Shown: piece after piece, positions 5,573 to 28,580 of the stretch
How positions within the stretch are numbered: the stretch's first letter is position 1
Layout of the letters: each line of letters begins with the position of its first letter
IMG/VR virus record: IMGVR_UViG_3300016457_000036
Coordinates: 71,253-120,543 of that record
Length of the DNA stretch: 49,291 bases
Strand: one strand, 5' to 3'
DNA from: a virus
Notes under the pieces: model-generated
Told to the model about the DNA's origin: nothing
Seen by the model: only the letters and a program-made list of their open reading frames with translations
The model's database searches: none
Position numbers and translations under genes: made by a program

Positions 5573-8500
5573 TTAACACGCATCATTCATGTAGTCTACT
5601 AATTGATCTTGGTAAGCAGTTACCTGTTCTTTAGAGAGATATTTATCTAAAGCTTTATTAATATGCACCACAGCATCATCTTCGGTTATTATATTGTACT
5701 CTATGTTAGCATCTGCTAAGTTCTTAGTGTTTTCAATAATCGTTGTAAGCACTTCTTTAATCTTGCTGTATACATACTTAGTATTCTTTTTAGTATCTTT
5801 TCCTACCCGGACACTAGGTACTGTATCGATCCCTTGTAAGTGGTTTACATCATACTCTTTATTCAAGTTTTCGCTACGCTGTTCATCCATTTCAGTAAGT
5901 ATGCTAAATACTTCATTTATGTCGAAATCTTTATTGATCCGTGATAGACCATCTGATAATTGCTGTGTAAGATTTTGCTCCGCTAAAAACTTTTTAAAGT
6001 CTTTTAATTCTCCATTAGCAATAAGCTCAGAAAGGCTATTCTCTGTTTTAGCTACAGCATTTCCCATAATATCATGAGTACGAGCTGTGTGCAGCACTCC
6101 TCCGTTATATTCACCGTGTGTTTTTACGATTTTATCCATATTAACACCCATGATGTATGCATCATAAATATTCTGAAAAGAGGCACTATCTGAGATACTC
6201 ATAAGGAACGCATCGATCTCGTGAATGTCAATAACACCATTAGCACCAATATTCATGCCTGGTACTTTGTTGTATGATGCCCCACTCTTACCTACACGAT
6301 TTTTAAATGGAATGGCACCGTCACGAAGAGCACCATCTACACCTACATAGTCTCCGGCTTCGTTGTCATACTTCATGTAGTCTTGATTAGCACCTTCATT
6401 AATACTCTGTGAAGTGTACCCATAACCTTGCTCACTTAGCTTTACAAGGATCTTGTTGAAGTCTTCTTTACTAATCTGTACAGTATCCGTACCGGCTTCT
6501 GCTTTGTACTTTTCTAATTCTTGTTTAAGCTTGTACTTAAAAACTGTAAAGTTTACTATCTCAACACTTTTTAGAGCCTCTCTAAATCTATTCAAGAAAG
6601 GGAAAGCCTTATTAAAAGCTTTTTCAATAATATCCCCATATGCATTAGATGTCTGCTTAGCGATACTCGCTTGCATCTCTTGAGATAGTACGAGATTATT
6701 TACAGTATGCATTATACGACCGTCTTCAGGCATCTCATCTTTAGTGCTATAGAAGTCAGTACCGCTCTTGTATGCTTTATACTCAATACCTTGTGCTAGT
6801 TGAGCATATAGATCCTCTAGTGATGGCGTAGTAGTGTTTGCAAACAAGTTTGTATACAGTCTATTGAACTCCTGCCCTTCAGTAGCTTCAGCATATTGTG
6901 AGTTATATGAACGAAGAATAGTAGTGAGCAAAATCTTTGCTTTTTCTCTTTCTACTTTCTGCTCTGCTGTCTCTCCTTGAGGCGCAGAACGCTCTTTCCC
7001 TTGTCCTCTAAAGTTAGGATAGGCTACCATGAATAAATCATGCATAGCCATACCTTTATACTGTCCTAAAGCATTACTGACTGTTTCTACACCGATAGTA
7101 ATACCGGCATTTTTCTTAATTGTGTTGATACTCGCACCATAGATGTAGTACATAACTAAGTACTTCATCAGATTACGCCAATTTTTATCTTTACCTTTAA
7201 TAACAAAAGCTTCTACTAGCTTCTCAATATTAGTTTTACCGTCATAACCATCTCCCGCTTTTTTAGCGTTTCTAATTGCAAGCTCTTCTGCAACGATTTC
7301 AGCAGGAGTACGATAAATATCAATTCCACCTTCATCTAAAAATTGTTGATGAGTTTTAAACTCACTATTTCCTTCACTATCCACAACATAGATACCACCT
7401 TTTTTAAGGTAGTCCATCGCTTCATTTGTACCAATTTGTAATAGTGTTAAGATCATACCTGATGTAACTGCATCCATCTCAATAACAAGACTGTGATCAA
7501 AAGCTTTACCTTCTGCACTCTCGAACTGTGCTAGAGCCGCTACGAGCTGATAAGCATGGAAACGCTCATTTGTCGGCAGGAAGCTGAGATCGATCTCTGT
7601 GCCTTCTTTATAAGCTTCTACGACAGGTTTAATAGGACTGTTCTCAGGATAAGTCACAGTACCATCATTCTCAAGCTTAAAGTATTTTTCTTCTAGCTCT
7701 TTAAATACACTTTCTGAAGTCTCTTTATCGATACCTAGACCTAGTGACTGAGAAGCTGCACCTTTAAACATAGTGATGTGATCAGCATCGTAGCCTTTAC
7801 CATCTTTAGCGACAGGCATTGTACTTTTCATATCTTCCATCTCAACAATAAAACGAGTGATCTTACTATTCTGTGGGTTCATCATCTGATTTTCTATCAT
7901 ATAACGACCTGACACAGTAACGTCCCACGCTAAGTAGAACGGAAGTGTGTCGCCATTCGGCTGATTTACTAACTGATACGTAGTGATCATGTTGTCAATA
8001 ATAAGCTTATTGGCTGCATTATTTTTTACGTCCGTTGCCTGCTTTAAATATGGCTTATTAAGTATCTGCTCTTCACTAACAAGGAGCATGTCATAAAACA
8101 CATCATTGATAGTGATATGATCCTTAGCCTCTGTATTCTTGTTGTTATACTCTACTCGCTCTTTTACTTCTGCAAAAAGTTTCTCGAACTCTGCTGTAAA
8201 TTTACGTGGTAGTTTTTGTTGGGCATTGATATAATCAACTTGGTTTTCTCCGGCAACTTCTATAGACTGTCCACGATAAGTCTTCTTACCATACTCTAAG
8301 TCAGCAGGAGGATCTAACTGTACTTGTGTTCTATCACCATCAATACCTAAATATTCATACGCAGAAGACACTTCAGTAATCAGTTGCACAGTCTTGTCGT
8401 TAAGGTTAGTATTCATTATTCTGAAATGTTTCCCATTTGCAGGCGCATCATCACGTACAGTTTGTACAATTTTACCATCGGCACTAGAATCAGAAATAGT

Positions 8501-11500: not shown

Positions 11501-14137
11501 TGTTTTTCCAATATTACGTGTCTGAAGAAACGAGTCTAGCTCTGTAAGAGGTTGTTTAGTGCTTTTACCTGTAAGCGCGGCATCAACAATACCTTGTGTA
11601 TGTTCCTTCATAGATAAGCGTCTTCTACCTAAAAACGAGAAACCTGTTTCAAAAATCTCTTTTTCTACTTGGTGAGAATTTTTATTCTTACCTACATCGT
11701 CAAGTCTTACTTCTAACTCTTGAGCTCTTTGTTGGAAATAAGCAAGATCTTCAGGAGTGTACACATCAGTATTATTACCTACAGAGCCCATACGTTGTAT
11801 TACAGCTAGTGCTTTTGCTTTAGCCGAAGTGGATAGACCTTGAATGGCATTACTATCGTCTTCATTTCTAGCCATTTGAGCAAGCTCAGGTCCTAGTGTA
11901 TCTGACAATCTACGTTCATGTAGAGTAATGAGCATATCAAGAACTTTTTGACGATTAATACCTTCTAATCCATCTAAAGCTCTTTCATATGTCTCTTCTA
12001 CTACATCCATAGTTGGAGCTGCATCTTCACCATTTCTAATACGCTCTATAGCTCTGTCATTCAACTTACTAAGTACACCGGCAGTAATCACTCCCATTGC
12101 TTCTTCATCATTAGGGTCAATTTTATTGATACGTGCAATTTTTTGTACGTTCATCTGAAGGTAGTCACGAACAGTATTCTGACCTTGTTCGTATACACCT
12201 GACTCAAGGAAACGCTTAGGATCTGCAAGCTTATTAGTAGTCTCTTCTATAATAGCATTTGTAGCAGCCCCTTGTGCCTCAACAGTATCGAATGTGTCGA
12301 AGATGCCCTCTTCTTCATCAAGAGTCATATCGGCTATTTCTATCACAGCAGAAGGACTGTACTTAGTACGATCACCCTTAACTCTTGTATCTTCTGAATT
12401 AAAAGTATCTTTTCCTAGTCCATACACTTGACCAGGTGCGCCCATGTGAACACCACCTGCGGCACCGGCTAACGTAGCACCTAGCACTTCATCAATGTTC
12501 TCTTGATTTGTAAGAATAGCGGCTAATCCGCCCGGATGTTTTTCAGTACCTAACTGCTCTGAAAGGATCTGTCCCCAATTCTGAGTAAATTCCTGAGCGG
12601 CTTCTGTCGCACCGGCAGCACTAAGACCTGCAGCTGTTTCACCTATCTTAGCTAAGAAGCGTTTCTTACCTATAAGTGTAGATGAACTGAACGCATCTTG
12701 AAGCATACGTTTACCACCATCTAAGCCGGTGATTTTTCCGAACGCAATACGATCAAGACCTAACTCTAAAACCTTCTCAGCAGTAACAGCCATGATCTCT
12801 ACCATTGTAGGTTCTTTGCCGTTATTGTTGATCTTACGTTCTTCTAATGAGTTGTTAGCTTGCTCACCTACGACTGTAAGGAAACCTGCATTACTTAGAA
12901 CCTTATGACGTAAGTTATCAGCAATACCCATACCACTAGCAATCTTTTTATCAATTTTCTCAGCACGTACTATGTTACCCGCTGCTCTTGCTTCAGTTGC
13001 ACGTGAAGCTAGTTTTCCTATTTTAGTAAACTTACCAAAACCTACAAGCATCTCAGCCATCATACCTAGTGACTCAGCAGTGATCTCAGGGTTCTTTAAT
13101 ACCTCTGTGATAGCAGATACATAGTTACCTTGTTTCCAATAGCCTGTAGCCTCTCCTAGCGTCTTGGTGGCATTAACACGATTATACCCCACCCACTTAT
13201 CGATGTTCTCTTGCTTTTTAGCATTATCTAGCCAATCGTTATTACCACCTGGTGTTAGAACATCAAGAACGAAGTCAGCAGAACTTACTCCTGCTTTAGC
13301 AAAACCTGACTGAGCTGCATCAATAACATTGTACTGACCACCATTATAGTTAGCATCGTTTGCATCACTGAGCATTTGAGAAAATGCTTGATTATTTGCT
13401 ATCTGCTCAGGTGTTGCATTTTTATTAAAGAATTGAGTATTGTATATCTCTGTGTAGCCCTTATCTAACTGTGCAGTATCTCTGATACTTTCACCGGCAG
13501 TATTAAAACCTGAGTCGTAAGTACGATCAGCTAAGTTGGCCTTATTACCATGCCACTTATTTTCCCAATCCTCCGCACCTGCGAAACCTTTTTCAGAAAG
13601 GATCTCATAGCCATCTCTAATATATTGATCTTTGTAGCGAGCTGCAGCACTTACAGGAGAGATACCTGTCTTGTAAGTATAAAGAGGATTACCTGCTTCA
13701 TCATAGCCATCATTGAGTCTGAGTTGGTACACTTTAAAACGTGCGTTAGGATCATCTTCAGCAGCATTGTATTGATTAATAAGTTCCTGTCGATGAACAA
13801 GACTTTGTTCCATAGTAGTATCAGAGTCTTCAAAGATCTTATTAGTCATACCGACTTCTTGACCTTCTACATTAGCTGTAAAATCTTTACCGCCCCATAA
13901 GTTATTTACAGTATTCCATGTAGATTTAGCTGCAAGTGTAAGATCTGAGTCACTACCGGCTTGATCGTGCTTAGCAGATAGACGTGCTTTTTTACGTTCT
14001 GCTATTTCATCAAGTGTAAGGTTTTCTTGTAGCATTGGTGCTGTCTTAGCTTCTGTAGCTGCTATAAAAGCATCAATATTATTTTCATTGCTAAAATCTG
14101 TAGGAGTAAATGAGTATGGATCGTATTTTTCAGCCAT
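5573..14137 (-). CDS. Virion-encapsidated single-subunit RNA polymerase (N4 vRNAP-like), 2854 aa
   Basis: In N4-like phages this enzyme is packaged, injected with the DNA and transcribes early genes. The C-terminal third carries the T7/N4 polymerase motifs in order. A DxxxSGR form of the T/DxxGR motif ends at R2078. Motif A is MDAVTSG with catalytic D2222. Motif B is R2321-x3-K2325-x7-Y2333-G2334, the exact T7 spacing. The best motif C candidate is NIYDAYIMG with D2659. Spacings (144, 99 and 338 residues) are in the range for this family with an insertion before motif C. The usual His of motif C is Tyr here. The first 2000 residues include an Ala/Gly-rich amphipathic stretch near 490-570, acidic low-complexity sequence near 1150-1230 and long helical regions, probably for packaging and ejection. 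At 2854 residues it is shorter than N4's roughly 3500. The ATG at 14137 follows an AGAGGG ribosome site partly inside a hairpin. Confidence 0.88.
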   Translation of the reverse strand: MAEKYDPYSFTPTDFSNENNIDAFIAATEAKTAPMLQENLTLDEIAERKKARLSAKHDQAGSDSDLTLAAKSTWNTVNNLWGGKDFTANVEGQEVGMTNKIFEDSDTTMEQSLVHRQELINQYNAAEDDPNARFKVYQLRLNDGYDEAGNPLYTYKTGISPVSAAARYKDQYIRDGYEILSEKGFAGAEDWENKWHGNKANLADRTYDSGFNTAGESIRDTAQLDKGYTEIYNTQFFNKNATPEQIANNQAFSQMLSDANDANYNGGQYNVIDAAQSGFAKAGVSSADFVLDVLTPGGNNDWLDNAKKQENIDKWVGYNRVNATKTLGEATGYWKQGNYVSAITEVLKNPEITAESLGMMAEMLVGFGKFTKIGKLASRATEARAAGNIVRAEKIDKKIASGMGIADNLRHKVLSNAGFLTVVGEQANNSLEERKINNNGKEPTMVEIMAVTAEKVLELGLDRIAFGKITGLDGGKRMLQDAFSSSTLIGKKRFLAKIGETAAGLSAAGATEAAQEFTQNWGQILSEQLGTEKHPGGLAAILTNQENIDEVLGATLAGAAGGVHMGAPGQVYGLGKDTFNSEDTRVKGDRTKYSPSAVIEIADMTLDEEEGIFDTFDTVEAQGAATNAIIEETTNKLADPKRFLESGVYEQGQNTVRDYLQMNVQKIARINKIDPNDEEAMGVITAGVLSKLNDRAIERIRNGEDAAPTMDVVEETYERALDGLEGINRQKVLDMLITLHERRLSDTLGPELAQMARNEDDSNAIQGLSTSAKAKALAVIQRMGSVGNNTDVYTPEDLAYFQQRAQELEVRLDDVGKNKNSHQVEKEIFETGFSFLGRRRLSMKEHTQGIVDAALTGKSTKQPLTELDSFLQTRNIGKTAKTEVWDEAQGKSVPLSYYQLDRHMSTIIENNERIADIIKTEMLAPISKRGSKAAQDTTTELQAMLLNLDENTQEIKDKQKAHRANENTSGDLNMIPEEINDIGYSLGKEHKALSDEINDPNTSPEARQEALIELDGVQQEIDSMLSRFSSTAIGSDVNFMNGVDMGKSGVERPANPFDDNELITEESTEAPVVDTETPATMTEDEANTRGFDHGNSVSGIIAEMRDTSNPDMDQLNTDLAEAEATSDAMLEDLKVMDGANSTKLVDAYEAGYAKGYANHPIPEAEPEVAEDIEEEIVEETEPVNEETVETTEIPVETTLTEDVGTIETTANVEPTASDTPTVQVTTTKEKVQALVARIGAFKKGPAEFIRKWSDGVTLENALLKAGTKASQKVITRIDEMYAEMTDNRPSTEYKYRRKPNPQAEAAQAASRANNEVSEDDTTGTDEVFKTDKAVEESYSVEDILELERLYDEEQKAQEQEDVTSTEETRSDTKETTESTEDVGQEQDTDGTDNQQRGSENRLKPFVNKFMHSKEWRQLVTELIGLRKRVTSFEGISKQIKQHTANMINDQRVLQTTADKLNELQQIRDTNIDLPQDAYNREERQKRIDKVNERLLKAIAEQDAIIEKVIKRILVRTTELAVLERAQQLKTTKRQLEAELDKDLAGSQLMAKAIEDNAQAGKKADGKPLFKDPSKIAAFVKMVKNHITDLLKVNKDTSKLSILDLDVTINDLMTEADANGNLVNQDQILALLPKGIKERIFINGTTEEKLAFMAALQKGNAIMQNTEIKTDQRMLVGVTADHTDVIGNVYPIVETNAATGVVTVKYVERDADGKETEFDLYETDKDGNKTQKYFPNPIALLSKLMNKGGVRVTDGIATEIQDAIKLEMLQTMRSMAEVSVKKGDERERYISDVFGVDPSDAAYTELSNMLTEGKVPESAFVQSAGKNVLRSLRLSILGNVDAKLADSITTALGLMVIEAVKNSTHQEGRESTTFNSGDTITISDSSADGKIVQTVRDDAPANGKHFRIMNTNLNDKTVQLITEVSSAYEYLGIDGDRTQVQLDPPADLEYGKKTYRGQSIEVAGENQVDYINAQQKLPRKFTAEFEKLFAEVKERVEYNNKNTEAKDHITINDVFYDMLLVSEEQILNKPYLKQATDVKNNAANKLIIDNMITTYQLVNQPNGDTLPFYLAWDVTVSGRYMIENQMMNPQNSKITRFIVEMEDMKSTMPVAKDGKGYDADHITMFKGAASQSLGLGIDKETSESVFKELEEKYFKLENDGTVTYPENSPIKPVVEAYKEGTEIDLSFLPTNERFHAYQLVAALAQFESAEGKAFDHSLVIEMDAVTSGMILTLLQIGTNEAMDYLKKGGIYVVDSEGNSEFKTHQQFLDEGGIDIYRTPAEIVAEELAIRNAKKAGDGYDGKTNIEKLVEAFVIKGKDKNWRNLMKYLVMYYIYGASINTIKKNAGITIGVETVSNALGQYKGMAMHDLFMVAYPNFRGQGKERSAPQGETAEQKVEREKAKILLTTILRSYNSQYAEATEGQEFNRLYTNLFANTTTPSLEDLYAQLAQGIEYKAYKSGTDFYSTKDEMPEDGRIMHTVNNLVLSQEMQASIAKQTSNAYGDIIEKAFNKAFPFLNRFREALKSVEIVNFTVFKYKLKQELEKYKAEAGTDTVQISKEDFNKILVKLSEQGYGYTSQSINEGANQDYMKYDNEAGDYVGVDGALRDGAIPFKNRVGKSGASYNKVPGMNIGANGVIDIHEIDAFLMSISDSASFQNIYDAYIMGVNMDKIVKTHGEYNGGVLHTARTHDIMGNAVAKTENSLSELIANGELKDFKKFLAEQNLTQQLSDGLSRINKDFDINEVFSILTEMDEQRSENLNKEYDVNHLQGIDTVPSVRVGKDTKKNTKYVYSKIKEVLTTIIENTKNLADANIEYNIITEDDAVVHINKALDKYLSKEQVTAYQDQLVDYMNDAC

Positions 14138-16048: not shown

Positions 16049-16333
16049 TTACCCGAAGGCTTGTCCGTTTTGCCCTGTTGAGGCCCAACTTTTTTGATCT
16101 GCTACTTGTCGATTATCTACAGCAATATTTGTAGTGCCTGTATTTGTAGTGCCTGTATTTTTAGCGTTTAATCCTGCAAGAATAGCCTGTGCAGAAGCAC
16201 CTAAACCTTTAAATGCTTTTGTTGTTCTATTGAATGAAGTAGCATATGTGTTATCTTTTTTAGTTGTTGCAGCAGAACGTGCAAAGTCAAAATTATAAGG
16301 CGATACTATTTGTGGCTCATTCTGAGAAGTCAT
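16049..16333 (-). CDS. Small internal virion protein candidate, 94 aa
   Basis: An unrecognised 94-residue protein, rich in Asn, Thr, Ala and Gly. It contains a short repeat (NTGTT twice, near residues 59-68) and an amphipathic Ala/Gly/Leu helix near residues 42-55. Its ATG overlaps the stop codon of the preceding 256-residue gene by one base (TAATG), which implies translational coupling. Its place among ejection-type genes suggests a minor virion component. No enzymatic motif is visible. Confidence 0.7.
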   Translation of the reverse strand: MTSQNEPQIVSPYNFDFARSAATTKKDNTYATSFNRTTKAFKGLGASAQAILAGLNAKNTGTTNTGTTNIAVDNRQVADQKSWASTGQNGQAFG

Positions 16334-17103
16334 TACTGTTCCTGTGTAGCAGTATTGTTTTGCTTAGCTGCACGTGCACGTTGAGATGCTAGTAATGCAG
16401 CTTTTTTACGTGCATCTGAGGTTGCTGTCATTTCAGCATTGTCAGCTGAAGCACTAGGAGTATTAATTGGACCACCTAAGCCTCCGCCTGATGTTAGCGT
16501 AGTTTCTGTAAGTCCTGTACGAGAGCCTGCGTCTCTTCCTGTAGACTCTTTCATAAGATAGTCAGTAAAATTAGAACCTACTGCATCTCTAGCAATTCCG
16601 ATAGTATTTACACTACCTGGTAGATCGTTTTCAGCGGCATATACAGATGGAGCACGTGAAGTACCTCCTCCACTAAAGTCATTTGCAGCGAGGACTGCCG
16701 GAGTTTCAATTCCTGTCATAGGATTAGTATACGCAGGACTAGCACTACCTCCACCTATCTGATAATCAGACGCAGTGAGAGTACTGTAATCACCTGTACC
16801 TTGTGTTTCTGTACGAGCACGTTCTCTAGCTGCGTCAAGTGCATCATAGTACTCTTGACTATCACGATCTAAAGTAGGATCTATCTGTCCTCTATACCGA
16901 GCTGTTTTACCACCTGTGATAGCGGCTAATCCGGCAAGACGGTTTTGATTCATGTTAAATTGAGCTATTTTAAGACCTGTGTCTTTATTCCACATTTCTT
17001 TTTGCTGTTTTCTAGCTGCTTCAGCTTCTTTTTGTGCCGTATACGCAGCATATGCTGTCGAAATACCGCTAATAGCTCCACCTACTCCTGCTCCAATACC
17101 CAT
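16333..17103 (-). CDS. Internal virion/ejection-type protein with glycine-rich hydrophobic N-terminus, 256 aa
   Basis: The N-terminus (residues 1-25) is a Gly/Ala/Ile-rich hydrophobic segment beginning MGIGAGVGGAISG. It is followed by a Lys/Glu/Gln helix (25-45) and then a Ser/Gly/Thr-rich, probably disordered body. Short internal virion proteins of podoviruses that interact with membranes during DNA ejection often have this layout, but I cannot name a family. It begins 10 bases after the stop of the 816-residue gene and ends overlapping the next start, so it belongs to the same translational unit. Confidence 0.75.
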   Translation of the reverse strand: MGIGAGVGGAISGISTAYAAYTAQKEAEAARKQQKEMWNKDTGLKIAQFNMNQNRLAGLAAITGGKTARYRGQIDPTLDRDSQEYYDALDAARERARTETQGTGDYSTLTASDYQIGGGSASPAYTNPMTGIETPAVLAANDFSGGGTSRAPSVYAAENDLPGSVNTIGIARDAVGSNFTDYLMKESTGRDAGSRTGLTETTLTSGGGLGGPINTPSASADNAEMTATSDARKKAALLASQRARAAKQNNTATQEQ

Positions 17104-17113
17104 CTCAGATCCT

Positions 17114-19564
17114 TTATTCTTGCTTGCTTACAGGCGTTTTAAACCGTATTCTACTCTGTGTTTCACAGTATAGGCTGTACTTATCTTTGTAGAGCATATC
17201 ATTTTTATACTGAACATCTCCTAATGCTATTGAAAATATTTGATTGTAGTCCATTCCAATATTAGTATCTAAATCTTGTAAGATAATTCCTACAATATCT
17301 GTTAGGGTGAGTACAAGATTATTCATATCATCAGTAGCAGATCCTTTGAAAGCATCTTTAAACTTAGCAGCTAGTCTAGCAAGTTCTTCTTCAAGACGTT
17401 TATTTTCTTCCTCCATCTTTTTCTGCACATGGTCAGCATAGAGGTATCCACCTCCGGCTAAGAAAGCACCGATTAGTGGTCCAATCCACCATCCTGCTCC
17501 CCATGTTACAATCGTAATAATTATAGTTACTATCACTAACACAATTTTTATAAAATCTGCAAAATCTTCTGTTTCATAGTATTCTAAATACGTTGCTTGT
17601 GAAGCGTATATTTGTAAGTAAGCGCCACTAAAAAATAATTCTAGTTTATCATTAGCAGACAGCTCTCTTGAAAAATCTATAGAAAGAGGAAATAATAAAA
17701 TTGACTCACTATCAGTTTTTAAAGTAGCGGAGACTGTATCTACAGCATCTACAAGAGGACCTGAGCCATCTTCGTTCTCAGGTACTTTACGTCTAATTAC
17801 AGTGACACCTACAATATCTAATATCACGAGTTTTCTACGTACATGACTACTAAGTTGTTTTATTACTGTAAGAGAATTTTCTGTTCTGTTTACAGACATT
17901 GATACATGATTAATAGGAAAATCATCAGTTGTAGCTTCTGCGTAAATTGTATCTGCAATATGTCTTATATTAACAGAAGAGTTAAAAGTACCTACAGTAA
18001 ATCCATAATAGTAAACATTTGACATGAGTTCAAAACTCACAGGCGGCACAGCCGGAAACTCTTCTGAGTCTGCCATTGTTTTAAAAAACTCAAACGTAGC
18101 GTGAGCTGTACCATTTATGTATTGCTTTTGAGCTGCAGTTGCGTCATCAATTTTAAGTACTGTTCCTCCTGGACCTACTACACCTGGCTTTACTTTCTGA
18201 GCAAGAGGATTAATTGCAAAACGTATGTATCCTCCGGAGATCTTATCTAAATCTTCTTGTCCCCCACATACCATATTAGTAGCTAGATCAAGCGTCATTC
18301 CTAATCCACGTAATACTGCATTAGTACTTACGTATCTGCCATAATTGCTACTTGTTTCTGCAGGTACGGTACTTTCGGGAACACTACATGAGGGTGCTTC
18401 TTCTGCTGTATTATCAATACAATAACTTCCATTAGCGTGTGCTGCTGTATAGGCTTCATATCGTGCATCGCTAATTCCATTTACATTTGCTGTTCCTTCT
18501 CGTAGTCTAATAAGCGGCATCATCTCTAATTCATCAATAGCAATACGTGTAGCAGCACTATCCGGTAAATCATCAAAACCAAGTAACTCTACAAATTCTC
18601 TTCCATTGTATGTAAAATGTGTTGTCACATAGGACTTAGCTTCCATTAAATTATACACCGGAAAAGTAATCAAAGTTGTATCATTTACAGTTGTTTCTGA
18701 GTCACTTATAGTTACAGTTCCTGCTACATCTCCTGCTTCTGTTGGTCTACTAATAGAAGTAGATGAGTCTGATATAGTAGAGTATCCTGTCTTGCTCTGA
18801 CCATGAGCCTGTGTAGCTCTAGTTACTAATGTTCTTGTTACTATGGTAGTTGTATAAGTAACAGTAATAGGAGGTATTTCTCCGTTACTTGTAATTGTTG
18901 TTGTTTCAGTTACAACTGTTCTTGTAAATGTAGTATAGCTATTCCTACCATTTGCCTTCACTTTATTAATAGGCGTATTTCTGATATTTTCAATATAAAA
19001 ATATCTCCCGTCAGAATGTCTTACTAGATCATCTCCTAAATAGTTTTGAGAGGCATCGTGCAGTAACCGATACCAATATACTTCTTCTTTATGAGGATAT
19101 TTTTTCTTAGAGGTAATAATTGTAATCGGAGATAATCCTGTAGTGGACTCTACAATAGGTTTTATCTCAGCAGTATCTACTATCAAGCCTACAAGATTAC
19201 TATGTACATCAAATCCGTCCCATGTCTGATTTTCAGCTAAGTAGTACGGCTTATTCATCTTAGCATTTGCTTCTGCATTACGCTGCTTCATAGGCCCTAG
19301 TAAGTTCTTTTTCTGATTACACGAGTCTGCCATAGATGCATTTAATAGTCCAATAATTGCTTCTTTACGAACTGTTGATATAGGAAATAACTGCTTTGAA
19401 ATTACTGATGCGGTAAGAACTATTTCATCTTCAATACCGAACCATGACATAATTTCTTCTGCTGCAGACTCTTCCCATTCTTGAATTTCATCTAAAATAT
19501 CCCCAATAAATCCGAGATCTATATTACCACCAAGTGAGAGTATGTCTTGTGTAGGTTTAGCCAT
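17114..19564 (-). CDS. Structural/ejection protein with C-terminal membrane hairpin, 816 aa
   Basis: Residues 1-60 are acidic and helical. The middle (about 140-650) is beta-rich with many Thr/Val/Ile strands, including a run of alternating T and V near residues 210-250. Residues about 670-708 form a strongly hydrophobic double segment (IVLVIVTIIITIVTWGAGWW, then a Gly-rich stretch ending GGGYLY), compatible with two membrane passes. A charged coiled coil and a soluble tail of roughly 70 residues follow. A virion protein that inserts in the host envelope during DNA ejection is the best inference; the family is not recognised. The start at 19564 overlaps the upstream stop by 8 bases and has an AAGGA ribosome site, linking it to the ACP/KAS/163-aa group. 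Confidence 0.78.
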   Translation of the reverse strand: MAKPTQDILSLGGNIDLGFIGDILDEIQEWEESAAEEIMSWFGIEDEIVLTASVISKQLFPISTVRKEAIIGLLNASMADSCNQKKNLLGPMKQRNAEANAKMNKPYYLAENQTWDGFDVHSNLVGLIVDTAEIKPIVESTTGLSPITIITSKKKYPHKEEVYWYRLLHDASQNYLGDDLVRHSDGRYFYIENIRNTPINKVKANGRNSYTTFTRTVVTETTTITSNGEIPPITVTYTTTIVTRTLVTRATQAHGQSKTGYSTISDSSTSISRPTEAGDVAGTVTISDSETTVNDTTLITFPVYNLMEAKSYVTTHFTYNGREFVELLGFDDLPDSAATRIAIDELEMMPLIRLREGTANVNGISDARYEAYTAAHANGSYCIDNTAEEAPSCSVPESTVPAETSSNYGRYVSTNAVLRGLGMTLDLATNMVCGGQEDLDKISGGYIRFAINPLAQKVKPGVVGPGGTVLKIDDATAAQKQYINGTAHATFEFFKTMADSEEFPAVPPVSFELMSNVYYYGFTVGTFNSSVNIRHIADTIYAEATTDDFPINHVSMSVNRTENSLTVIKQLSSHVRRKLVILDIVGVTVIRRKVPENEDGSGPLVDAVDTVSATLKTDSESILLFPLSIDFSRELSANDKLELFFSGAYLQIYASQATYLEYYETEDFADFIKIVLVIVTIIITIVTWGAGWWIGPLIGAFLAGGGYLYADHVQKKMEEENKRLEEELARLAAKFKDAFKGSATDDMNNLVLTLTDIVGIILQDLDTNIGMDYNQIFSIALGDVQYKNDMLYKDKYSLYCETQSRIRFKTPVSKQE

Positions 19565-20048
19565 TTTTACATTCCTTAAAACCTAGCAGTTCACTAGGGT
19601 TGCCTCTTAATAAATATCTTTTTGCGATGTACGCAGAACTAATTGTGATCACTCCTGTACTTTCAAACTTTAATTTTTGTCCAGGAGACATTAGACTTTT
19701 AAAGCTACTATGTTCGTTTCCATGTGGCACGAAATTTATTTTTGTATGCCTGTAGATAACGAATGTTAGAAAAAGTAGCTTTTCAACTGCGCTGAGATTA
19801 AGTAGATCCCACGTAGTAGCTATCTTACTATTTTCAAAACTAACACTTCCCTGAGTCCTACCATTAATCTTTATATGGTAAAAAATAGTACTATTCCGAA
19901 CACTATCAGCGTAGGCTTTATCTGCTTTTATACCTAGATTTTTTTCTAGTTTTTGTATGAGTTCTTCTATTATAGCAGTAGAAGGTTCATATGACTCTAT
20001 GATGTACTTCTTACTGCCTGCTTTATTTGTGTAGCACACAGCTTCCAT
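19557..20048 (-). CDS. Unknown protein co-translated with the phage ACP and ketosynthase, 163 aa
   Basis: I do not recognise this protein. It has an N-terminal helical region (about 20-45), strands near residues 65-80, a hydrophobic helix around 88-102 (AVEKLLFLTFVIY), and a C-terminal part with an SPGQKLKFE strand that loosely recalls hot-dog dehydratases. The diagnostic FabA/FabZ motif HFPG..P..PG is absent. The ATG at 20048 sits 5 bases after a perfect AGGAGG (20054-20059), itself encoded inside the last codons of the ketosynthase gene. The gene overlaps KAS by 26 bases and the 816-aa virion gene by 8. It could be an acyl-ACP partner, an accessory protein or a virion protein; the sequence does not decide. 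Confidence 0.75.
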   Translation of the reverse strand: MEAVCYTNKAGSKKYIIESYEPSTAIIEELIQKLEKNLGIKADKAYADSVRNSTIFYHIKINGRTQGSVSFENSKIATTWDLLNLSAVEKLLFLTFVIYRHTKINFVPHGNEHSSFKSLMSPGQKLKFESTGVITISSAYIAKRYLLRGNPSELLGFKECKNG

Positions 20049-20877
20049 AGAAGCCTCCTAAGCCACTAGCAGTACATAGTGTAGAACCTTTAAAGTTTGT
20101 ATCATCTAGTACCATACACAGCTCTATAAGAGCACTTGCTCCTTGTGTATGACCTATTTTACTCTTAAACTCTTTTACATCATCACTTAATACTTTTTCA
20201 GCTTCCGTATTTTGATCTGTACCGGTTCCGTGCCCTTTTACATTATCAGCTATAGACGCTACTTTTTCGTAGCCTTCCGCACTCACATAGAAAGGATTAC
20301 GATTATAGGTATACTCCCATTTAGTATCTGTAATTGTTGCTCCTACACCGTCTTCATTACTTAGGATCACACATGCAAAACCTTCGCCCGGAGTAACATC
20401 TATCTGATGTTCTTTAAATATACGTATCGTATTAAAGCTTGTACGTTCTTCGGAGATGATGATCACATGATCTACTACCCCTGTCTCTAAAAGAGTTTCT
20501 GCTTCATATATGGAGTGCATACTACTTGCACATGTATTACTATTGATATTTGCATATGTAATATTATTTTTATCTATCAGCGCAGTAATATATTTGTGCA
20601 TCATATACGCTGTAAGCTCTTTAATAATCATAGCACTTGGCTCTATCTCAAGACTGTTCTTCATAGAACCTTTATAGTTTCTGCTTTCACCTTGATGGAG
20701 ACTAGCTCCTGAAGCGTACAAAAAAGCTACCTTACCAGGTAACTGTAACTCTTGTAATTCTGCTTTGAACATTTTGAGATATTGCTGTGTGAAATATTTT
20801 GTACGATCTTCGAGAAGTTCTATTCTGTCCTCTTTAGGAACAGCTCCTGCAACATAGAAATAATTATTTATTTTCAT
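20023..20877 (-). CDS. Compact beta-ketoacyl-ACP synthase (FabB/FabF-type KAS), about 284 aa
   Basis: KAS enzymes condense an acyl thioester with malonyl-ACP in fatty acid or polyketide synthesis. Numbering from the upstream ATG at 20886, the nucleophile is C119 in NTCASSMHSI, the first His is H219 in GHGTGT, and the second is H246 in KSKIGHTQGAS, with the conserved Lys at 241. The C-terminal GLGGFYGS matches the FabF GFGGTNG gatekeeper loop. The catalytic set is therefore complete. The protein is much shorter than usual (FabF is about 410 residues): the N-terminus is trimmed and the Cys-His and His-His spacings are contracted. The ATG at 20877 is preferred because AGAGG lies 9 bases upstream of it and directly abuts the ATG at 20886. 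It overlaps the ACP and the 163-aa genes. No reductase or transferase is encoded here, so host FabD, FabG and others would be needed. Confidence 0.88.
   Translation of the reverse strand: MKINNYFYVAGAVPKEDRIELLEDRTKYFTQQYLKMFKAELQELQLPGKVAFLYASGASLHQGESRNYKGSMKNSLEIEPSAMIIKELTAYMMHKYITALIDKNNITYANINSNTCASSMHSIYEAETLLETGVVDHVIIISEERTSFNTIRIFKEHQIDVTPGEGFACVILSNEDGVGATITDTKWEYTYNRNPFYVSAEGYEKVASIADNVKGHGTGTDQNTEAEKVLSDDVKEFKSKIGHTQGASALIELCMVLDDTNFKGSTLCTASGLGGFYGSCVLHK
20054..20059 (-). promoter_or_regulatory. Perfect AGGAGG ribosome binding site inside the KAS gene
   Basis: AGGAGG lies 5 bases before the ATG of the 163-aa gene and is embedded in the conserved Gly-Leu-Gly-Gly region of the ketosynthase. 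It is among the strongest sites in the window and fixes the start at 20048. It suggests the 163-aa protein is made at a higher level than KAS. Confidence 0.7.
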
Positions 20878-21085
20878 TGATTGCATCCTCTATGTTTTGC
20901 CATGTCATATTTTCTATATTGGCTTCACCGAGACTGCCATTAGGAAGGAAAGGATGTTCTGCATCTATATTTAGCAGTACCATTGTAATACCGAAACTAT
21001 CGAGTCCAACTTCGGTAACTTTTTCATTAAGAGATATTAACTCGCCATTTTCTTCTTCGACTAGCGATTGGAAGTATTCTAGCAT
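20864..21085 (-). CDS. Acyl carrier protein, 73 aa
   Basis: This small acidic helical protein has the ACP signature EVGLDSFGI, where Ser30 is the expected 4'-phosphopantetheine site in the Asp-Ser-Leu/Phe position at the start of helix II. Length (73 versus about 77 in E. coli AcpP) and acidity fit the family. The C-terminal helix (NIEDAINENK) matches the usual end. No phosphopantetheinyl transferase is visible, so a host AcpS or Sfp-type enzyme would be needed to activate it. The start at 21085 has an AAGGA site with good spacing. The last codons overlap the start of the ketosynthase, which indicates coupled synthesis of ACP and KAS. The gene follows a head protein gene by 45 bases. Confidence 0.87.
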   Translation of the reverse strand: MLEYFQSLVEEENGELISLNEKVTEVGLDSFGITMVLLNIDAEHPFLPNGSLGEANIENMTWQNIEDAINENK

Positions 21086-21130: not shown

Positions 21131-21718
21131 TTACGGACATGCTGCCCCAATAGGAGGAATACCGAGATCACAGAATATACTATCAAACACTTTTTCCATG
21201 TTATCTTTATTCATATTATCAGGAAGATTATTCGCTGTAGGAAGTGAACTATATGTAATTCCCCATGTCTCTAGCAGCTTATCATAAGCTTGTTGTTTCT
21301 CATGTTCATCAAAACCTAGTATCTGTCTACGATAGAGATCTGTTTGTGCTTCTTCTTTAGCTACTTGTGCAGGGATAAGATTATCTAGGATGTATTGTTC
21401 TTGTTCTGCTTTTATAACAGCTAACGCAAGTTCTGCTTCTTTAATTTCAAGTTCTTTTAGTGCTATTAAAATTTGAGCGTTACCTAGCTCAATTTCATTT
21501 TCTTTAACTTCTTTATCTAGCTCAAAAGTAACTGCTTCTTTAACCATAGCAGGAAGAGTTTGTACATAAATAGCACCTGCTTCTGCTTGAGTAATACGGT
21601 TCTTAACAATAGACTCGTCAACATGGGCTCCTATAAGCTCAATTAACTGACCTGCATATCCTCCGTCGGCTACTGTACTATCACCTACTATATTGTCAAA
21701 GTCAATTAAATCTGCCAT
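21131..21718 (-). CDS. Head-associated coiled-coil protein, 195 aa
   Basis: Residues 30-65 (TQAEAGAIYVQTLPAMVKEA region) lead into a long alternating Glu/Lys/Ala/Leu helix (65-115). A segment LYRRQILGFDEHEKQQAYDK and the sequence WGITYSSLP follow. This pattern of a helical stalk followed by a (Y/R)RQ..GFD..K.Q.. module recurs in phage structural proteins next to capsid genes as I remember them, but I cannot name the family. The gene lies between a UUCG-loop terminator and the ACP gene. It may be a head-completion or internal protein. Confidence 0.75.
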   Translation of the reverse strand: MADLIDFDNIVGDSTVADGGYAGQLIELIGAHVDESIVKNRITQAEAGAIYVQTLPAMVKEAVTFELDKEVKENEIELGNAQILIALKELEIKEAELALAVIKAEQEQYILDNLIPAQVAKEEAQTDLYRRQILGFDEHEKQQAYDKLLETWGITYSSLPTANNLPDNMNKDNMEKVFDSIFCDLGIPPIGAACP

Positions 21719-22473: not shown

Positions 22474-23895
22474 TTATACAATCTTCGCAGTACAAACGAT
22501 CTGACGGATACGCTCTGCACGATAGATAAGAGTTCCGAAGTACCATGCGATACTCATAGAACCTTTCTTACCGAATGGATCGTTGTTCGCGTCAGGCTTA
22601 GGCATTGCTGTCTTGATACGAGCTGAGTCACCTGCGAAACCAACAGTTGCGAATGAGTCTGTACCTACAAATAGGATAGGGAATACATCGTAACCTGCGG
22701 CTGCGGCTGTACCTGGCTTCTGATCTTCTTCACGTCCACTATCAGGAGTATACACAGGACCATCAGTAACATCAGTTACAGAAACTGCACCTGCTGCATC
22801 ACCCATAAGATCTTTGTTAGAAGAATACATAACGCCTGCTGTTGCATCTGCACCGGCACCTGCGTAGTGTTGCATGTTATCAACTTCGATGAAACGGAAA
22901 GCACCAACACGACCAATCTCACCATCAGCTACGTTTCCACGTGCGCCATCATAGTAAGACTCGATAGGCTCCCATACATTAACACCATTATGTTGCATGT
23001 CTTGAAGCGTTGGGTATAGTTGCTGACCTACGTAAACATAGTAAGCTTTACCAACAACAACTGTATCAATGTTCTTAGAACCTGAGATCAGCTTAGTGTC
23101 TTTTGGTACTAGAGCTTGTTTAAGAGCTTGTTCCATAAGACGAAGATCTGCAAATGCAAGGTAGTTTTTATCTGTAAGTGTCTTCAAAGAAGTCGCTACA
23201 TTAGTACCATCACCACCTGCAAAAGTACGGTTAGCTTCAGATGCGTTTAGAAGGTCAGATTGAACCTGTGCTTCAAATACGTCACCTTTAGCTTCACCAA
23301 GATCTTTAGACTTCTGTGCAAGAACACCTACACGTGAGTCCATATCGATTGAGCGTTGAGTAAACTTCATGTGAAGACCGAACTCAGCTACTTGACCTTT
23401 AAGAACGATTGAACGAGCATTAACTGCATTAACGTTTCCGCCCTCTTCCGGTAGTGTAGGATAAGCACCGTCTAGTACTGCAAATTCAGAGTCACCGTTA
23501 AACAAGTTACCTGCACCTGACATAGAAGGACCGGCTGTACCTAGAGAAGCTGCTACTGCATCAGCGATTGCTTCTGAACGATAACCTTGAGCGGAACCAA
23601 CCATTACACCTGCATCACTATACGCATACCATACAGACTTAACAAGTTGTGCAGCATTTGCATTAATACCATTATCGATCTGATTCATTGGGTGGAATAC
23701 CGGGAAGTGGCGTTCTTTAACAATGATGTCACCATAATGTTTAGGTTGTGTTAGCTTGTCGCCTAGCTGTGTAAATACACGCTTACGCATAGCTTCTTTG
23801 ATTGCACCTTTAGACCAAAATTGATCGTTAATCTGCTCAGTAATGTCTGTTGAAGTCAACTTACCTTCGTTAAATCTTGAAATTAAATCACTCAT
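22474..23895 (-). CDS. Major capsid protein, N4 gp56 family, 473 aa
   Basis: The protein follows the N4 gp56-type capsid pattern: a helical N-terminus (RFNEGKLTSTDITEQINDQFW), a basic region ending in FPVFHPMNQIDNG, a central G/V/M domain (VAEFGLHMKFTQRSIDMDSR), YVYVGQQLYPTLQDM near residue 290, the diagnostic GEIGRVGAFRFIEV near residues 323-337, and a C-terminal sequence with TDSFATVGF and DPFGKKGSMSIAWYFG. It would form the icosahedral shell with an HK97-like fold. At 473 residues it is longer than N4's 401, mainly through a glycine/alanine-rich insertion near residues 345-390. An AAAGGA ribosome site precedes the ATG. It follows the scaffold-like gene, as in many phages, and its mRNA is framed by stem-loops. 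Confidence 0.93.
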   Translation of the reverse strand: MSDLISRFNEGKLTSTDITEQINDQFWSKGAIKEAMRKRVFTQLGDKLTQPKHYGDIIVKERHFPVFHPMNQIDNGINANAAQLVKSVWYAYSDAGVMVGSAQGYRSEAIADAVAASLGTAGPSMSGAGNLFNGDSEFAVLDGAYPTLPEEGGNVNAVNARSIVLKGQVAEFGLHMKFTQRSIDMDSRVGVLAQKSKDLGEAKGDVFEAQVQSDLLNASEANRTFAGGDGTNVATSLKTLTDKNYLAFADLRLMEQALKQALVPKDTKLISGSKNIDTVVVGKAYYVYVGQQLYPTLQDMQHNGVNVWEPIESYYDGARGNVADGEIGRVGAFRFIEVDNMQHYAGAGADATAGVMYSSNKDLMGDAAGAVSVTDVTDGPVYTPDSGREEDQKPGTAAAAGYDVFPILFVGTDSFATVGFAGDSARIKTAMPKPDANNDPFGKKGSMSIAWYFGTLIYRAERIRQIVCTAKIV

Positions 23896-23938: not shown

Positions 23939-25279
23939 GTTAATCATAGCGTTCATCAACTCATCAAACTCTTCACCTTCAAGCTTCATGGGATCAAATT
24001 TAGCAGCCTTTACAGGTGCCTTTGATTTCCGTTTACTTACAGATGCCGCGTTCTTACGTCGTTCCGCAACTTTAGCGTTCTGTTTATCGGCCTTAGCCTT
24101 AAACTCTGTCTCTTTACGAGACTTAGCAATACGTGCCTTCTCTGTCGCTACATTGTCAGCTTTAGCCTGTTGAGCATTATTCTGACGAGCTTCAGATGAG
24201 ATACGACTAGCTTCTTTAAGAGATAACTCTTGCTGAATGTCTTTCGCCGCTGTACGATACTGCTCTAAAGTGTTCATACTTGAAAAAGTTCCGTTAACGT
24301 CTAGGCGTTTAAATTCCTGAATACGTTCTTGAACATAACCATAAGCACCACTTTGAATATGATCAAGCAAATCTGCTCTAATCTGTCCATCATGTAAATA
24401 CTCATTGAAACTGTCCTGGTCCCAATCTTTTCCGATCACTTGTCGAACTTCGTCCTCAAACCCTGCAGCCTTTGCTGTCTCTAGGCTATCTTCCAAAACT
24501 AACTGCTCTTGTGAAGCGAGTGTATTTTGGTTTACATAGTTGATTTCGTCCATCTCTATATCAAGAGGATCGATCTCTAGGTTTTTCAAGTGCTGCTTAA
24601 TAGCTTCAGGATCACCATCAATAAGCTTCATAGCTAGATTAAACTTGTCAGTATCTTCTAACATTCCACGTTCTTGTAACGGTGCCATATATGGACGATA
24701 CTTTTTAAAGCCCGCCATTTTGTCACTGAAACCACCCGCCATTTGCTGTGCCTGGATAATCTTCTTAGGATCCTTGAATCCATGAGTTTTCTTACCATTA
24801 ACAGTAAATTCCGTAGCTGTTACAGCATCGTAGAAAGCCTTATAGTCGATACCATCAGCTTGCTCAGGAGTCAGATCGACATCTTCTTCCGAGGTTTCTG
24901 TTGTATCTTGGTCTTCATCGTCGAGATCTTCCGTTTCCGAGTCATCTGCTGCGTCAGCATCTTCCTCTTCCTCTTCATCGTCCTCGTCGTTAGACTCATC
25001 GCTATCAGTTTCTACTAGAGTGTCTTCTTCCTCATCGTCCTCTGCGGCTTCGTCCGTATCCTCTAGCTCCCCGTCGGTATCTAGGTTCGTCTCTGACTCT
25101 TCCTCAGACTCTTCTTCTTGGTCTGTGTCCTCATTGTGTGTAACTTCTTCGTCCCCTATTGTAGCATCTTCCGCTTCTGTAGTCAACTGTGAGTCTAATG
25201 TGCCATTTATCATAGCATCCATTAACTCATCGTGTTCATCATCAGAAAGTGTTTCCGGGTTAAATTCTGTCTCAGCCAT
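23924..25279 (-). CDS. Acidic scaffold-like protein with matching N- and C-terminal motifs, 451 aa
   Basis: The gene sits directly upstream of the major capsid gene, the usual place for a scaffold. Residues 30-145 are extremely acidic (long Asp/Glu runs). The middle is helical (TPEQADGIDYKAFYDAV, FKDPKKIIQAQQMAGGF), and residues 340-430 form a basic helical region rich in Ala/Lys/Arg. The first 25 residues and the last 25 share the pattern F(N/D)P..L...E.DELM(D/N)AMING, so the same short helix stands at both ends. Scaffold C-terminal helices often bind capsid protein, which makes the duplicated motif a likely binding element. No protease motif is visible. The function rests on position and composition. 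Confidence 0.78.
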   Translation of the reverse strand: MAETEFNPETLSDDEHDELMDAMINGTLDSQLTTEAEDATIGDEEVTHNEDTDQEEESEEESETNLDTDGELEDTDEAAEDDEEEDTLVETDSDESNDEDDEEEEEDADAADDSETEDLDDEDQDTTETSEEDVDLTPEQADGIDYKAFYDAVTATEFTVNGKKTHGFKDPKKIIQAQQMAGGFSDKMAGFKKYRPYMAPLQERGMLEDTDKFNLAMKLIDGDPEAIKQHLKNLEIDPLDIEMDEINYVNQNTLASQEQLVLEDSLETAKAAGFEDEVRQVIGKDWDQDSFNEYLHDGQIRADLLDHIQSGAYGYVQERIQEFKRLDVNGTFSSMNTLEQYRTAAKDIQQELSLKEASRISSEARQNNAQQAKADNVATEKARIAKSRKETEFKAKADKQNAKVAERRKNAASVSKRKSKAPVKAAKFDPMKLEGEEFDELMNAMINGDIK

Positions 25280-25282
25280 AAC

Positions 25283-25663
25283 TTACTCCTCTTCTTCTGT
25301 AGTCGGTCTTGCTAGTACTTCAGTACGATACACACGGTCTGCTTCGAGTTGATCAGGAGCGTTTTCAGCTTCTCTCATTACGATACCGGGATATTTAGGT
25401 GTACCTACATACTCTTTCAAGTGACGTACAGCTTCAAGTTTAGCCATATTATTTTCCATGCCTTCTCTACGAATAGCGGGAACAGCAGTAAGTGTCTCAA
25501 ATAAACGCTCAGCTTCAGCTTCTAAATAACCTTCTGTGAAAACGAGAATATATCTAGGATCTGTTTTAAGTGATTCGAGTGCTTCACCGCGTTTAATAGC
25601 AGCTTCATTACGGGAGATTGATTTGTCTATATCTTGGAGTTCTTTTAAGTTAGCATTAGCCAT
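25283..25663 (-). CDS. Unknown head-module protein, 126 aa
   Basis: The family is not recognised. The protein is helical and charged, starts MANANLKELQDIDKSISRNE, and has a segment RYILVFTEGYLEAEAERLFE near residues 37-56, ending in an acidic tail (TTEEEE). It lies between the Gln-rich gene and the scaffold-like gene, three bases before the latter, so it is almost certainly co-translated with the head-assembly proteins. The 62-base gap upstream (25664-25725) holds only a weak ATGAT/ATCAT pairing followed by a U-run, too poor to call a terminator. Confidence 0.7.
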   Translation of the reverse strand: MANANLKELQDIDKSISRNEAAIKRGEALESLKTDPRYILVFTEGYLEAEAERLFETLTAVPAIRREGMENNMAKLEAVRHLKEYVGTPKYPGIVMREAENAPDQLEADRVYRTEVLARPTTEEEE

Positions 25664-25725
25664 TGCTTAATCCTTGTGAAAAAATGATCAGCTTTTTACG
25701 ACATCATGATTGGTCGAAGGGAAGA

Positions 25726-26267: not shown

Positions 26268-28580
26268 TTATTGTTCTCCTCTGTTTTTAGTAAATTCTGA
26301 ATACTGAGCTTTTCGTAGATCTGCTCTCTCTTTATCCGCTCTTGCCTCTGCATCGTTAGTAGCTTTAAACTCTTCCGACTCCATCTGATTAGATGCTGCA
26401 AATTCCTGGTCTTCTATCTGACGTTTACGGCGTACACCGCTTCTGTCATCTACAAAATTTTGGTCAAGCTGATCTCTTTCAGATACTGTTTTCTGAGCAT
26501 TTGCTGAAGCTAAATTCGCGTTAGCTGCAGCAAGTGCAGTATTAGCTCTTGCTAATTCTGCTTGTGCTATTGATAAATCAGCTTTAGCAGCTTTCATACT
26601 CATATCAATCTCATTCTCTTCAGAACGGCTAATACGCTCGATGATACGACTATCAGCTTCTTCAAGATCTTTCATAAGTTTATCATTCTCTAGCTTAGCG
26701 TTCTGTAACTGTAAATTTAATAACTCATCTTGACGTGGATCTACTTGTGGTTCGTAACTTTCGACCGCTTCTGCAAGACCTGGCATTTTCCATAACTCTG
26801 CAATTTTCACGTAGTGCATCTTAGCTATAGCAGGATCCATATTGGCCGCGTTAGTCTGCATGAGTGTCATAAGCTTATCTGCTGTTTCGTTGTCCTTCTC
26901 AGGAGTAGATACATCAATAATAAGATCAAAATCACCCGCTAGATCATCACGACGTACAGTTACAAATTCTTTATTAGTAACACGTACAACTTCTTCCTCA
27001 CTTAGGAACTCCTGGTTCATAGCAATAGTCATACGCCCCATATCAACAAATAGCTCACTCAATCTACGTAGTACACTTAGTTCACGTTTAGCTGTTGCAT
27101 CCATCGCTGAACGTACACCTGTTGCTGTTGAGTTGAGTGCTGAGCCACCTGCGCCTGTATTAAATGGACGAGTACCTGTAAGTGCTTCTGCATCTGCTGT
27201 TTGCATAGCAATCATATCACCTACACTATTAGGAATATCATCTACAGCTTGTTTAAAGATAGCAGTCTTTGCACTCATACCGCCACGATGGTATACAGTA
27301 TTACCCTTCTCGTAGTTGTTCTTCTGAGTAGGGCTTGGAAAGAAGTTTTCATCAATGAATGTCTGACCGACCGCTACAGATGCAGTAATATCTTGTGCTG
27401 CTCTTGTCATACGTCCGATAGTTTCTTGATTTTCTAAAAGGATCTCTGCATCAGGCTCACCGTGTATCTCCTGTTTGACAGGCATGTATACAGCAAGGCT
27501 AAATGGAATACGATTATGTGGAAAAGGATTTTCACTCATACGTACCATGATATTGTTAATGTAAGTAGCTACGATACTAACTAGCTCACCGGTGCCATGA
27601 ATGTCCCAATAACCCCAATACTCATAAGCACGTAATTTCTTACGGGCTTTATCTTGGTAGTTAAAGTCATTAGCTCCATCTGACATAAATTCATCGTCGA
27701 TAGACTCAGGGCTTCCACCCTCTTTAAGTCTGTTAAGATTATGGTAGAAACCACTTTCTTCGATAACTTCGTCTCCTGTTTCAGGATCTTGTGTTACTGT
27801 TTTAGTGTATTCATCTTTTTTAAGTGTTGCCCAATCCATATCATATTCGTGTACTAAGAAGTTAGCATTAGCCATAATACCTTCACAGGTAGGATCAATA
27901 GTAACATTCGCAGAGATACATACTTCATACGAAGGCTGATTTACAACAAGCGTCTCACGCTCTACATAAACCTTCTCTGTGCCTTTTTGCATAGGCTCAC
28001 CCATCTCCATACGAGCTTGAGCTTCTTCTTCTGTCATCTGACCGGCTTGAACAGCTTCTTGCATCATTTGTAGAGACTCTTCAGGAGTAGCAAAAACAGG
28101 CTGCTCTTCTTCTACTACTTTGATACCGTATTCAGATTCCCATCCTGTCTTAACAATAACAGTACCTTCATCTACATCACACCGAACAATATCGCCTACT
28201 AGTTTAACTTTAGGTACTTTTGTAGCCCATTGATAGTTAAGTAATAGGCTGTTTTGTTTAGCTGCTTCTATATCCTCGAATGTACGTGGTTGTACATCAT
28301 ACATGTCTGCAGTATTTAAGAAAGGTTCTTCTAGTGCGGGATATTTCCACTCGTTCTGCTTACGAACTACAAGTGGTCGAGAGGTACTCTTACCGGGCTT
28401 GGAAGCAGTGATTTTTTTACCGCCCTCTCTAGTGAGTTTCCACCCTCTAAGATTATCGCGGAAATCTTCCTGAGCAGACTCAGCTTCTTTTCTATCGTAA
28501 TCAAGATCACTTACACTTGGTTCGTTTTTCCACTCAGTAATTTGACTACTTGTAACCGATGCATCAGCTGACTCATTCAT
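26268..28580 (-). CDS. Portal protein, N4 gp59-like, 770 aa
   Basis: The portal is the dodecameric ring at one capsid vertex through which DNA is packaged and ejected. Length (770 versus about 763 in N4) and layout fit the N4 type: after a charged N-terminus, residues 85-118 read EPFLNTADMYDVQPRTFED and then LLNYQW. A core follows with INNIMVRMSENPFPHNRIPF and PVKQEIHGEPDAEILLENQE. The sequence GAGGSALNSTATGVRSAMDA near residue 485 precedes the crown. The C-terminal third (about 625-730) is a long Ala/Glu/Lys coiled coil. The ATG at 28580 follows AGAGGAGG. The gene heads the head module downstream of the promoter at 28908-28937. Confidence 0.9.
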   Translation of the reverse strand: MNESADASVTSSQITEWKNEPSVSDLDYDRKEAESAQEDFRDNLRGWKLTREGGKKITASKPGKSTSRPLVVRKQNEWKYPALEEPFLNTADMYDVQPRTFEDIEAAKQNSLLLNYQWATKVPKVKLVGDIVRCDVDEGTVIVKTGWESEYGIKVVEEEQPVFATPEESLQMMQEAVQAGQMTEEEAQARMEMGEPMQKGTEKVYVERETLVVNQPSYEVCISANVTIDPTCEGIMANANFLVHEYDMDWATLKKDEYTKTVTQDPETGDEVIEESGFYHNLNRLKEGGSPESIDDEFMSDGANDFNYQDKARKKLRAYEYWGYWDIHGTGELVSIVATYINNIMVRMSENPFPHNRIPFSLAVYMPVKQEIHGEPDAEILLENQETIGRMTRAAQDITASVAVGQTFIDENFFPSPTQKNNYEKGNTVYHRGGMSAKTAIFKQAVDDIPNSVGDMIAMQTADAEALTGTRPFNTGAGGSALNSTATGVRSAMDATAKRELSVLRRLSELFVDMGRMTIAMNQEFLSEEEVVRVTNKEFVTVRRDDLAGDFDLIIDVSTPEKDNETADKLMTLMQTNAANMDPAIAKMHYVKIAELWKMPGLAEAVESYEPQVDPRQDELLNLQLQNAKLENDKLMKDLEEADSRIIERISRSEENEIDMSMKAAKADLSIAQAELARANTALAAANANLASANAQKTVSERDQLDQNFVDDRSGVRRKRQIEDQEFAASNQMESEEFKATNDAEARADKERADLRKAQYSEFTKNRGEQ

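Follow-up and report, generated by a model that had tools for sequence, protein, structure and literature searches.

An acyl carrier protein, ketosynthase and gene X module in the virion operon of N4-like and other tailed phages, with acylation of a virion protein as its tentative role

Why would a phage keep genes for acyl chemistry within the operon that builds its particle? The question is raised by a stretch of 49,291 nucleotides from the IMG/VR virus record IMGVR_UViG_3300016457_000036 (hereafter the window), in which genes for an acyl carrier protein (ACP), a short beta-ketoacyl-ACP synthase (KAS), a third protein that we call X and a large virion protein lie head to tail and overlapping at 17114-21085(-) of an N4-like phage. 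The overlaps are 23 nt between ACP and KAS, 26 nt between KAS and X, and 8 nt between X and the virion gene, which belongs to the N4 gp53 (tail plug) family. An earlier reading of the window from its letters alone (the sequence-only reading) had described the ACP with Ser30, the KAS with its Cys, His, His and Lys, the 163-aa gene and the overlaps, and all of these were found as open reading frames (ORFs) where it had placed them. It had also located them between head and internal virion proteins; the virion operon was right, and the position is more exactly between homologues of N4 gp54 (tail tube) and gp53. The best explanation that we can offer, which we favour tentatively, is ACP-dependent acylation of the protein encoded directly downstream of the module.

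The small gene before the KAS gene is, by its sequence, an acyl carrier protein, and its loading with phosphopantetheine is predicted. Taken alone, the window ACP has no Pfam match, with the cut-off for PP-binding (PF00550) not reached, and the ACP of Alteromonas phage V19 scores 20.7 bits against that cut-off of 20.8. A ten-member ACP profile reaches ACPs in the PDB at 3.8e-5, the profiles of the N4-type and P22-type phage ACPs match one another (hhalign 98.1%), and the attachment Ser, in its Asp-Ser motif, is kept in 94/94 distinct ACP relatives. The window KAS taken singly has only a weak Pfam match (ACP_syn_III, E=1e-4, below the family cut-off). A nine-member KAS profile matches FabF-type and KAS III entries in the PDB, and 20 of the 21 aligned KAS relatives match the N and C domains of ketoacyl-synt, the best at 1.6e-20. 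Searches against KAS and ACP families, a check that the sequence-only reading had proposed, were thus weak or empty for single sequences and succeeded with multi-member profiles, which reach structures of both proteins.

All four active-site residues of the KAS (Cys, two His and Lys; C/H/K/H) are intact in 112/112 distinct sequences, although only the KAS Cys and Lys and the ACP Ser are unbiased columns, since the degenerate DNA patterns that fetched the loci each include one active-site His. Because the profile matches KAS structures and C/H/K/H is invariant, the identity of the KAS is firm, and decarboxylative condensation is its predicted activity. In a KAS tree with thin outgroup sampling and long branches, the phage KAS form a single clade (57 rows, 100/100) separate from the few bacterial KAS returned by the genome scan, with the window KAS inside a nine-row N4-type clade (100/100). 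The phage proteins resemble FabF/FabB-type KAS and AcpP in their catalytic residues and ACP serine, but the phage KAS is much shorter (287 versus ~410 aa) and very divergent, and it is encoded in a virion operon and not with fab genes.

The relative reached first was MW202545, an environmental Manatee Spring phage whose tail genes are of the P22 type and in which a 93-aa ACP (DIDSLD), a KAS and a 146-aa protein are followed by large virion genes. Starting from the KAS of MW202545 we reached 51 IMG/VR loci, and an alignment-based scan found at least 514 related KAS loci in IMG/VR. Among the fetched loci, ACP directly precedes KAS in all those having enough upstream sequence (97/97), X directly follows KAS in 75 of 89, and a large, virion-type ORF begins at the stop of X in 54 of 64. 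The arrangement is found in phages of the P22-tail type, in the unrelated N4-like phages and in a third tail type. Over five pairs, nonsynonymous divergence (dN) was 0.05-0.4 against a synonymous divergence (dS) of mostly ~0.5-2, with one dS saturated; dN being well below dS, selection is purifying. With ACP and KAS as tblastn queries, almost no isolates were returned among annotated phages, and the unannotated records that the KAS of MW202545 matched resembled bacterial contigs. The sequence-only reading had held that lost catalytic or attachment residues, or a trio absent from all relatives, would indicate a chance or decaying insertion; this is ruled out by the intact residues in 112/112 KAS and 94/94 ACPs, by dN far below dS and by more than 500 loci with a related KAS.

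A survey of related phages, likewise suggested beforehand, showed that the order ACP-KAS-X-gp53-like is kept in N4-type relatives (L055, L154, L155, L157, L158 and L160), while in L135 ACP-KAS-X is followed by a different virion gene. A window-type KAS is also encoded in a Sulfurospirillum metagenome-assembled genome (L143), a weak hint at the host. Two cultured Alteromonas schitoviruses, V19 and R22Y, have ACP and X but no KAS between gp54 and gp53, the junction that holds the module in the window, and their X matches the window-type X (hhalign 97.2%); keeping ACP and X without KAS suggests that these two can work together. The X pair of V19 and R22Y used as query found no IMG/VR relatives in the scan. 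The R22Y ACP (gp30) therefore resembles that of the window in its junction and in the X homologue next to it and differs in having no KAS; the R22Y paper covers the ACP only and reads it as an auxiliary metabolic gene (AMG) of host fatty-acid metabolism (PMC11705849). There is no insertion at the gp54/gp53 junction in N4, DSS3P2, K479, RHph_X3_15, phiAxp-3 and MS02.

We confidently predict a GNAT fold for the P22-type X. From a 42-sequence alignment, AlphaFold gave a model with a predicted local distance difference test score (pLDDT) of 94 and the GNAT order of elements, and the top Foldseek matches in the PDB were all GNATs, with probability 1.00. The canonical R/Q-x-x-G-x-G/A loop for the coenzyme A (CoA) pyrophosphate is absent and a conserved N-A-D-T-x-x-N-F is found instead, as expected for a donor other than CoA. 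Against a viral structure library, Foldseek returned phage proteins including a DUF2824 member. No X matches the Pfam family of that member (PF11039), so that the resemblance is one of fold and position only, and hhalign found no similarity of the P22-type X to P22 gp14 or T7 gp13. Pfam gave no HlyC match for any X and no autoinducer synthase match for the module proteins. The window X, searched singly, has no Pfam match at all; in the window-type X, a PH...KS motif is invariant.

The gene coupled to X varies by phage type, yet the N-termini of its products look alike (MSAVV or MGAVV, amphipathic). When a profile of 57 P22-type N-termini was run against 408 ORFs from 15 N4-type regions, the top four matches were all gp53 N-termini of module-bearing phages (L160 at 5.5e-9, V19 at 1.8e-4, L154 and R22Y weaker). 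In a shuffle control with 1000 sequences each, zero reached the score for three of these matches and one reached that of R22Y. An N-terminal extension is present in 9/9 gp53s of module-bearing schitoviruses and in 0/7 of module-less ones, phages that are not independent samples. With the L160 gp53 as query, V19 and R22Y alone among the best 20 listed matches align from residue 22, the others aligning from 212-251. A protein of Caulobacter phage GB2A shares its C-terminus with the P22-type downstream protein and has neither the module nor the N-terminal segment. Because the downstream protein has its extra N-terminal segment only together with the module, an acylated virion protein is the best fit among the three roles that the sequence-only reading had offered, the others being a lipid or polyketide carried in the particle and late remodelling of host lipids. 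Its broader claim, that acyl chemistry goes with the virion operon, gains from the deep conservation, the intact residues, the P22-type GNAT partner and the coupling to virion genes in two unrelated phage types, the chemistry being predicted.

ACP, KAS and X would thus act as a late-expressed acyl-transfer module within the virion operon. The phage ACP would be activated by a host phosphopantetheinyl transferase (PPTase), and the KAS, to judge from its intact active site, would extend or supply an ACP-bound acyl chain from host malonyl units. Of the related records, 15 were searched for a PPTase and 13 for FabD and a FabG-type reductase, and none of these was found, so the module would rely on the host for phosphopantetheinylation and for its malonyl or acyl supply. 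X, as a putative GNAT-fold acyltransferase (the fold is predicted for the P22-type X only), would transfer the acyl group from ACP to a protein amine. The likeliest substrate would be the tail plug or ejection-type protein encoded directly downstream, probably acylated in its module-associated N-terminal segment, and the acylated plug or DNA-ejection machinery might thereby engage membranes.

HlyC-type acyltransferases, which act on RTX toxins, are small GNAT-like enzymes that transfer an ACP-bound acyl group to the product of a neighbouring gene. By analogy, X would be expected to take an ACP-borne acyl group and modify the protein encoded beside it. The phage module differs in adding a dedicated ACP and KAS and in having a tail-plug or ejection-type protein as the neighbour, and its activity is a prediction. 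It is possible, if somewhat doubtful, that unrelated tailed-phage lineages share a virion-acylation cassette, with its own ACP, KAS and GNAT-fold acyltransferase, that lipidates the N-terminal segment of a tail plug or ejection protein for DNA delivery. If this idea is extended, proteins of the P22 gp14 and T7 gp13 kinds could count as cousins of the cassette that lack an ACP. Both are small, their genes stand immediately ahead of those for ejection proteins, and by Foldseek a DUF2824 protein, a member of the family of P22 gp14, shares its GNAT fold with the P22-type X, but their annotated surroundings show no ACP or KAS and they have no detectable sequence similarity to X. T7 gp13 has a family of its own.

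Several observations weigh against the acylation of a downstream virion protein. X is not the next gene after KAS in 14 of 89 fetched loci. In the L067/L073 lineage, ACP-KAS lies beside replication-type ORFs (as read from the ORFs), and no X was detected; in L073 (6326-9062), the pair adjoins a helicase-like ORF and is distant from virion genes. A diiron acyl-ACP-desaturase-like protein takes the place of X after KAS in L061, L063 and L064, a ferritin-like protein with similarity to acyl-ACP desaturases and rubrerythrins and the motifs EEFRH...DEARH (L064 8912-9721, L061 5561-6367). ACP-KAS is next to the portal gene in L060 and L107. These lineages, with replication-type, desaturase-like or portal neighbours, leave room for lipid remodelling and small-molecule synthesis, and late remodelling of host lipids in particular keeps its place because one KAS lineage without X adjoins replication-type ORFs. 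In the Vibrio schitovirus SBP1 the gp54/gp53 junction is occupied by a homing endonuclease gene (L164 3817-4317), and the site may therefore tolerate insertions. The AlphaFold model of the window X is poor (pLDDT 42.5) and hhalign found no profile link between the P22-type and window-type X, so that we infer a single X family from position only. The window gp53 does have an extended N-terminus, but one that lacks hydrophobic character and is not matched by the N-terminal profile. An N-terminal Met-Gly as a myristoylation-type signal was rejected, since an MG start also occurs in the module-less gp53 of N4, DSS3P2, K479, RHph_X3_15 and phiAxp-3.

Phage acpP and fabF have been published as AMGs (PMC8224337, PMC11705849), and the ACP and KAS described here might likewise redirect host fatty-acid synthesis late, for membrane remodelling, lysis or lipid supply, with X as an unrelated neighbour. 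ACP as the component found in every lineage fits this account, as do the contigs in which ACP-KAS without X adjoins replication-type ORFs and those in which a desaturase-like protein follows KAS. We nevertheless consider it unlikely, given the missing FabG-type reductase, FabD and PPTase in the related records searched, the overlap of the genes in most phages with X and a virion gene and not with metabolic genes, and the position of the phage KAS in a deep clade of their own, apart from the sampled bacterial KAS.

X could instead serve in assembly, in the way of P22 gp14 or T7 gp13, with ACP (and KAS) as non-enzymatic partners or hitchhikers. P22 gene 14 and T7 gene 13 likewise stand directly before ejection-protein genes, Foldseek ties the P22-type X to the Pfam family of P22 gp14, and X has no canonical CoA loop. 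A structural role of this kind would leave unexplained why C/H/K/H and the ACP Ser, which scaffolding does not need, are invariant, and X shows no sequence similarity to either protein; we judge it quite improbable. LuxI and FeeM are GNAT-fold synthases that use acyl-ACP donors with KAS-derived acyl chains, and KAS, ACP and a GNAT-fold enzyme make up the toolkit of the acyl-homoserine-lactone and N-acyl amino acid synthases. With such chemistry the module might make a small molecule (an acyl-amide signal, a lipid or a short polyketide) that is carried in the particle or freed at lysis, and the alternative desaturase-like partner does resemble chain tailoring. Unlike those synthases, the module has no match to the autoinducer synthase families in Pfam, and its overlap is with a virion gene and not with a regulator, which makes a small-molecule product very unlikely in our estimate.

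The features discussed are collected in Table 1. On the minus strand, the N4-like virion operon has the order portal, scaffold/tape-measure-like, major head protein, a 207-aa protein, gp54-family, ACP, KAS, X and gp53-family. We assign the phage to Schitoviridae (N4-like) on the N4-like major head protein, portal, gp54 and gp53, which are present in N4 order. In N4 the tail plug is formed by gp53 (PMC12633501); gp75 of phage DEV is the tail tube (PMC10925440) and, in our own reading, the counterpart of N4 gp54.

Table 1. Positions of the module, of its neighbours in the window and of the related genes of phage V19
Feature	Position	Strand	Details
Source window	bases 71253-120543 of 120.5-kb IMG/VR virus record		
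Portal protein, N4-like	26268..28580	(-)	phrog_1216, 3.6e-165
Major head protein, N4-like	22474..23895	(-)	phrog_1357, 4.3e-72; tblastn matches 471 phage records
N4 gp54-family (tail tube) protein, 195 aa, directly upstream of ACP	21131..21718	(-)	phrog_2050, E=1.1e-14; N4 gp54 = phrog_2050
ACP, 73 aa	20864..21085	(-)	phosphopantetheine-site Ser30 in GLDSFG
Short KAS, 287 aa	20023..20886	(-)	C119, H219 (HGTGT), K241, H246 (GHTQGAS)
Gene X, 163 aa	19557..20048	(-)	PH...FKS motif; by profile, homologous to X in V19 and R22Y (Alteromonas phages); positional counterpart of P22-type X
N4 gp53-family (tail plug) protein, 816 aa, proposed substrate	17114..19564	(-)	phrog_2220, E=8.6e-10; N4 gp53 = phrog_2220
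ACP and X homologue of V19 (L137)	24951-25229 and 25198-25701		annotated hypothetical

Three further genes of the window were recorded. An ORF of 2854 aa at 5573-14137(-) lies where N4 has its giant virion RNA polymerase; it has no PHROG or Pfam match and may be a very divergent form of that polymerase or another ejected giant protein. A 256-aa protein at 16333-17103(-), in the position of N4 gp52, weakly resembles the family of the T7 ejection protein gp14 (E=0.005). Among the tail-fibre genes, a 125-aa protein at 38582-38959(-) matches prokaryotic phospholipase A2 (PF09056, 4e-7, above cut-off) and has the active-site motif CNQHDFYY. It was considered as a conserved fourth partner of the module and rejected, since a search of 14 related module-bearing records did not find it.

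In the open-access literature (subscription journals were outside the search), phage ACP and fabF appear only as AMGs, and we found no acyl module in a virion operon and no acylated virion proteins made with an ACP. As a system, the module seems not to have been described before, while each of its proteins falls into, or is similar to, a known superfamily; the module would be far less new if the AMG account were true. To our knowledge, little is understood of how podovirus ejection proteins are packed in the capsid and inserted into the envelope, or of what P22 gp14 and T7 gp13 do beside them. With an ACP-KAS-GNAT module conserved next to ejection-type genes and coupled to them, lipidation becomes a concrete hypothesis. 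If it is true, phage acpP and fabF would sometimes be virion-maturation enzymes and not always host-metabolism genes.

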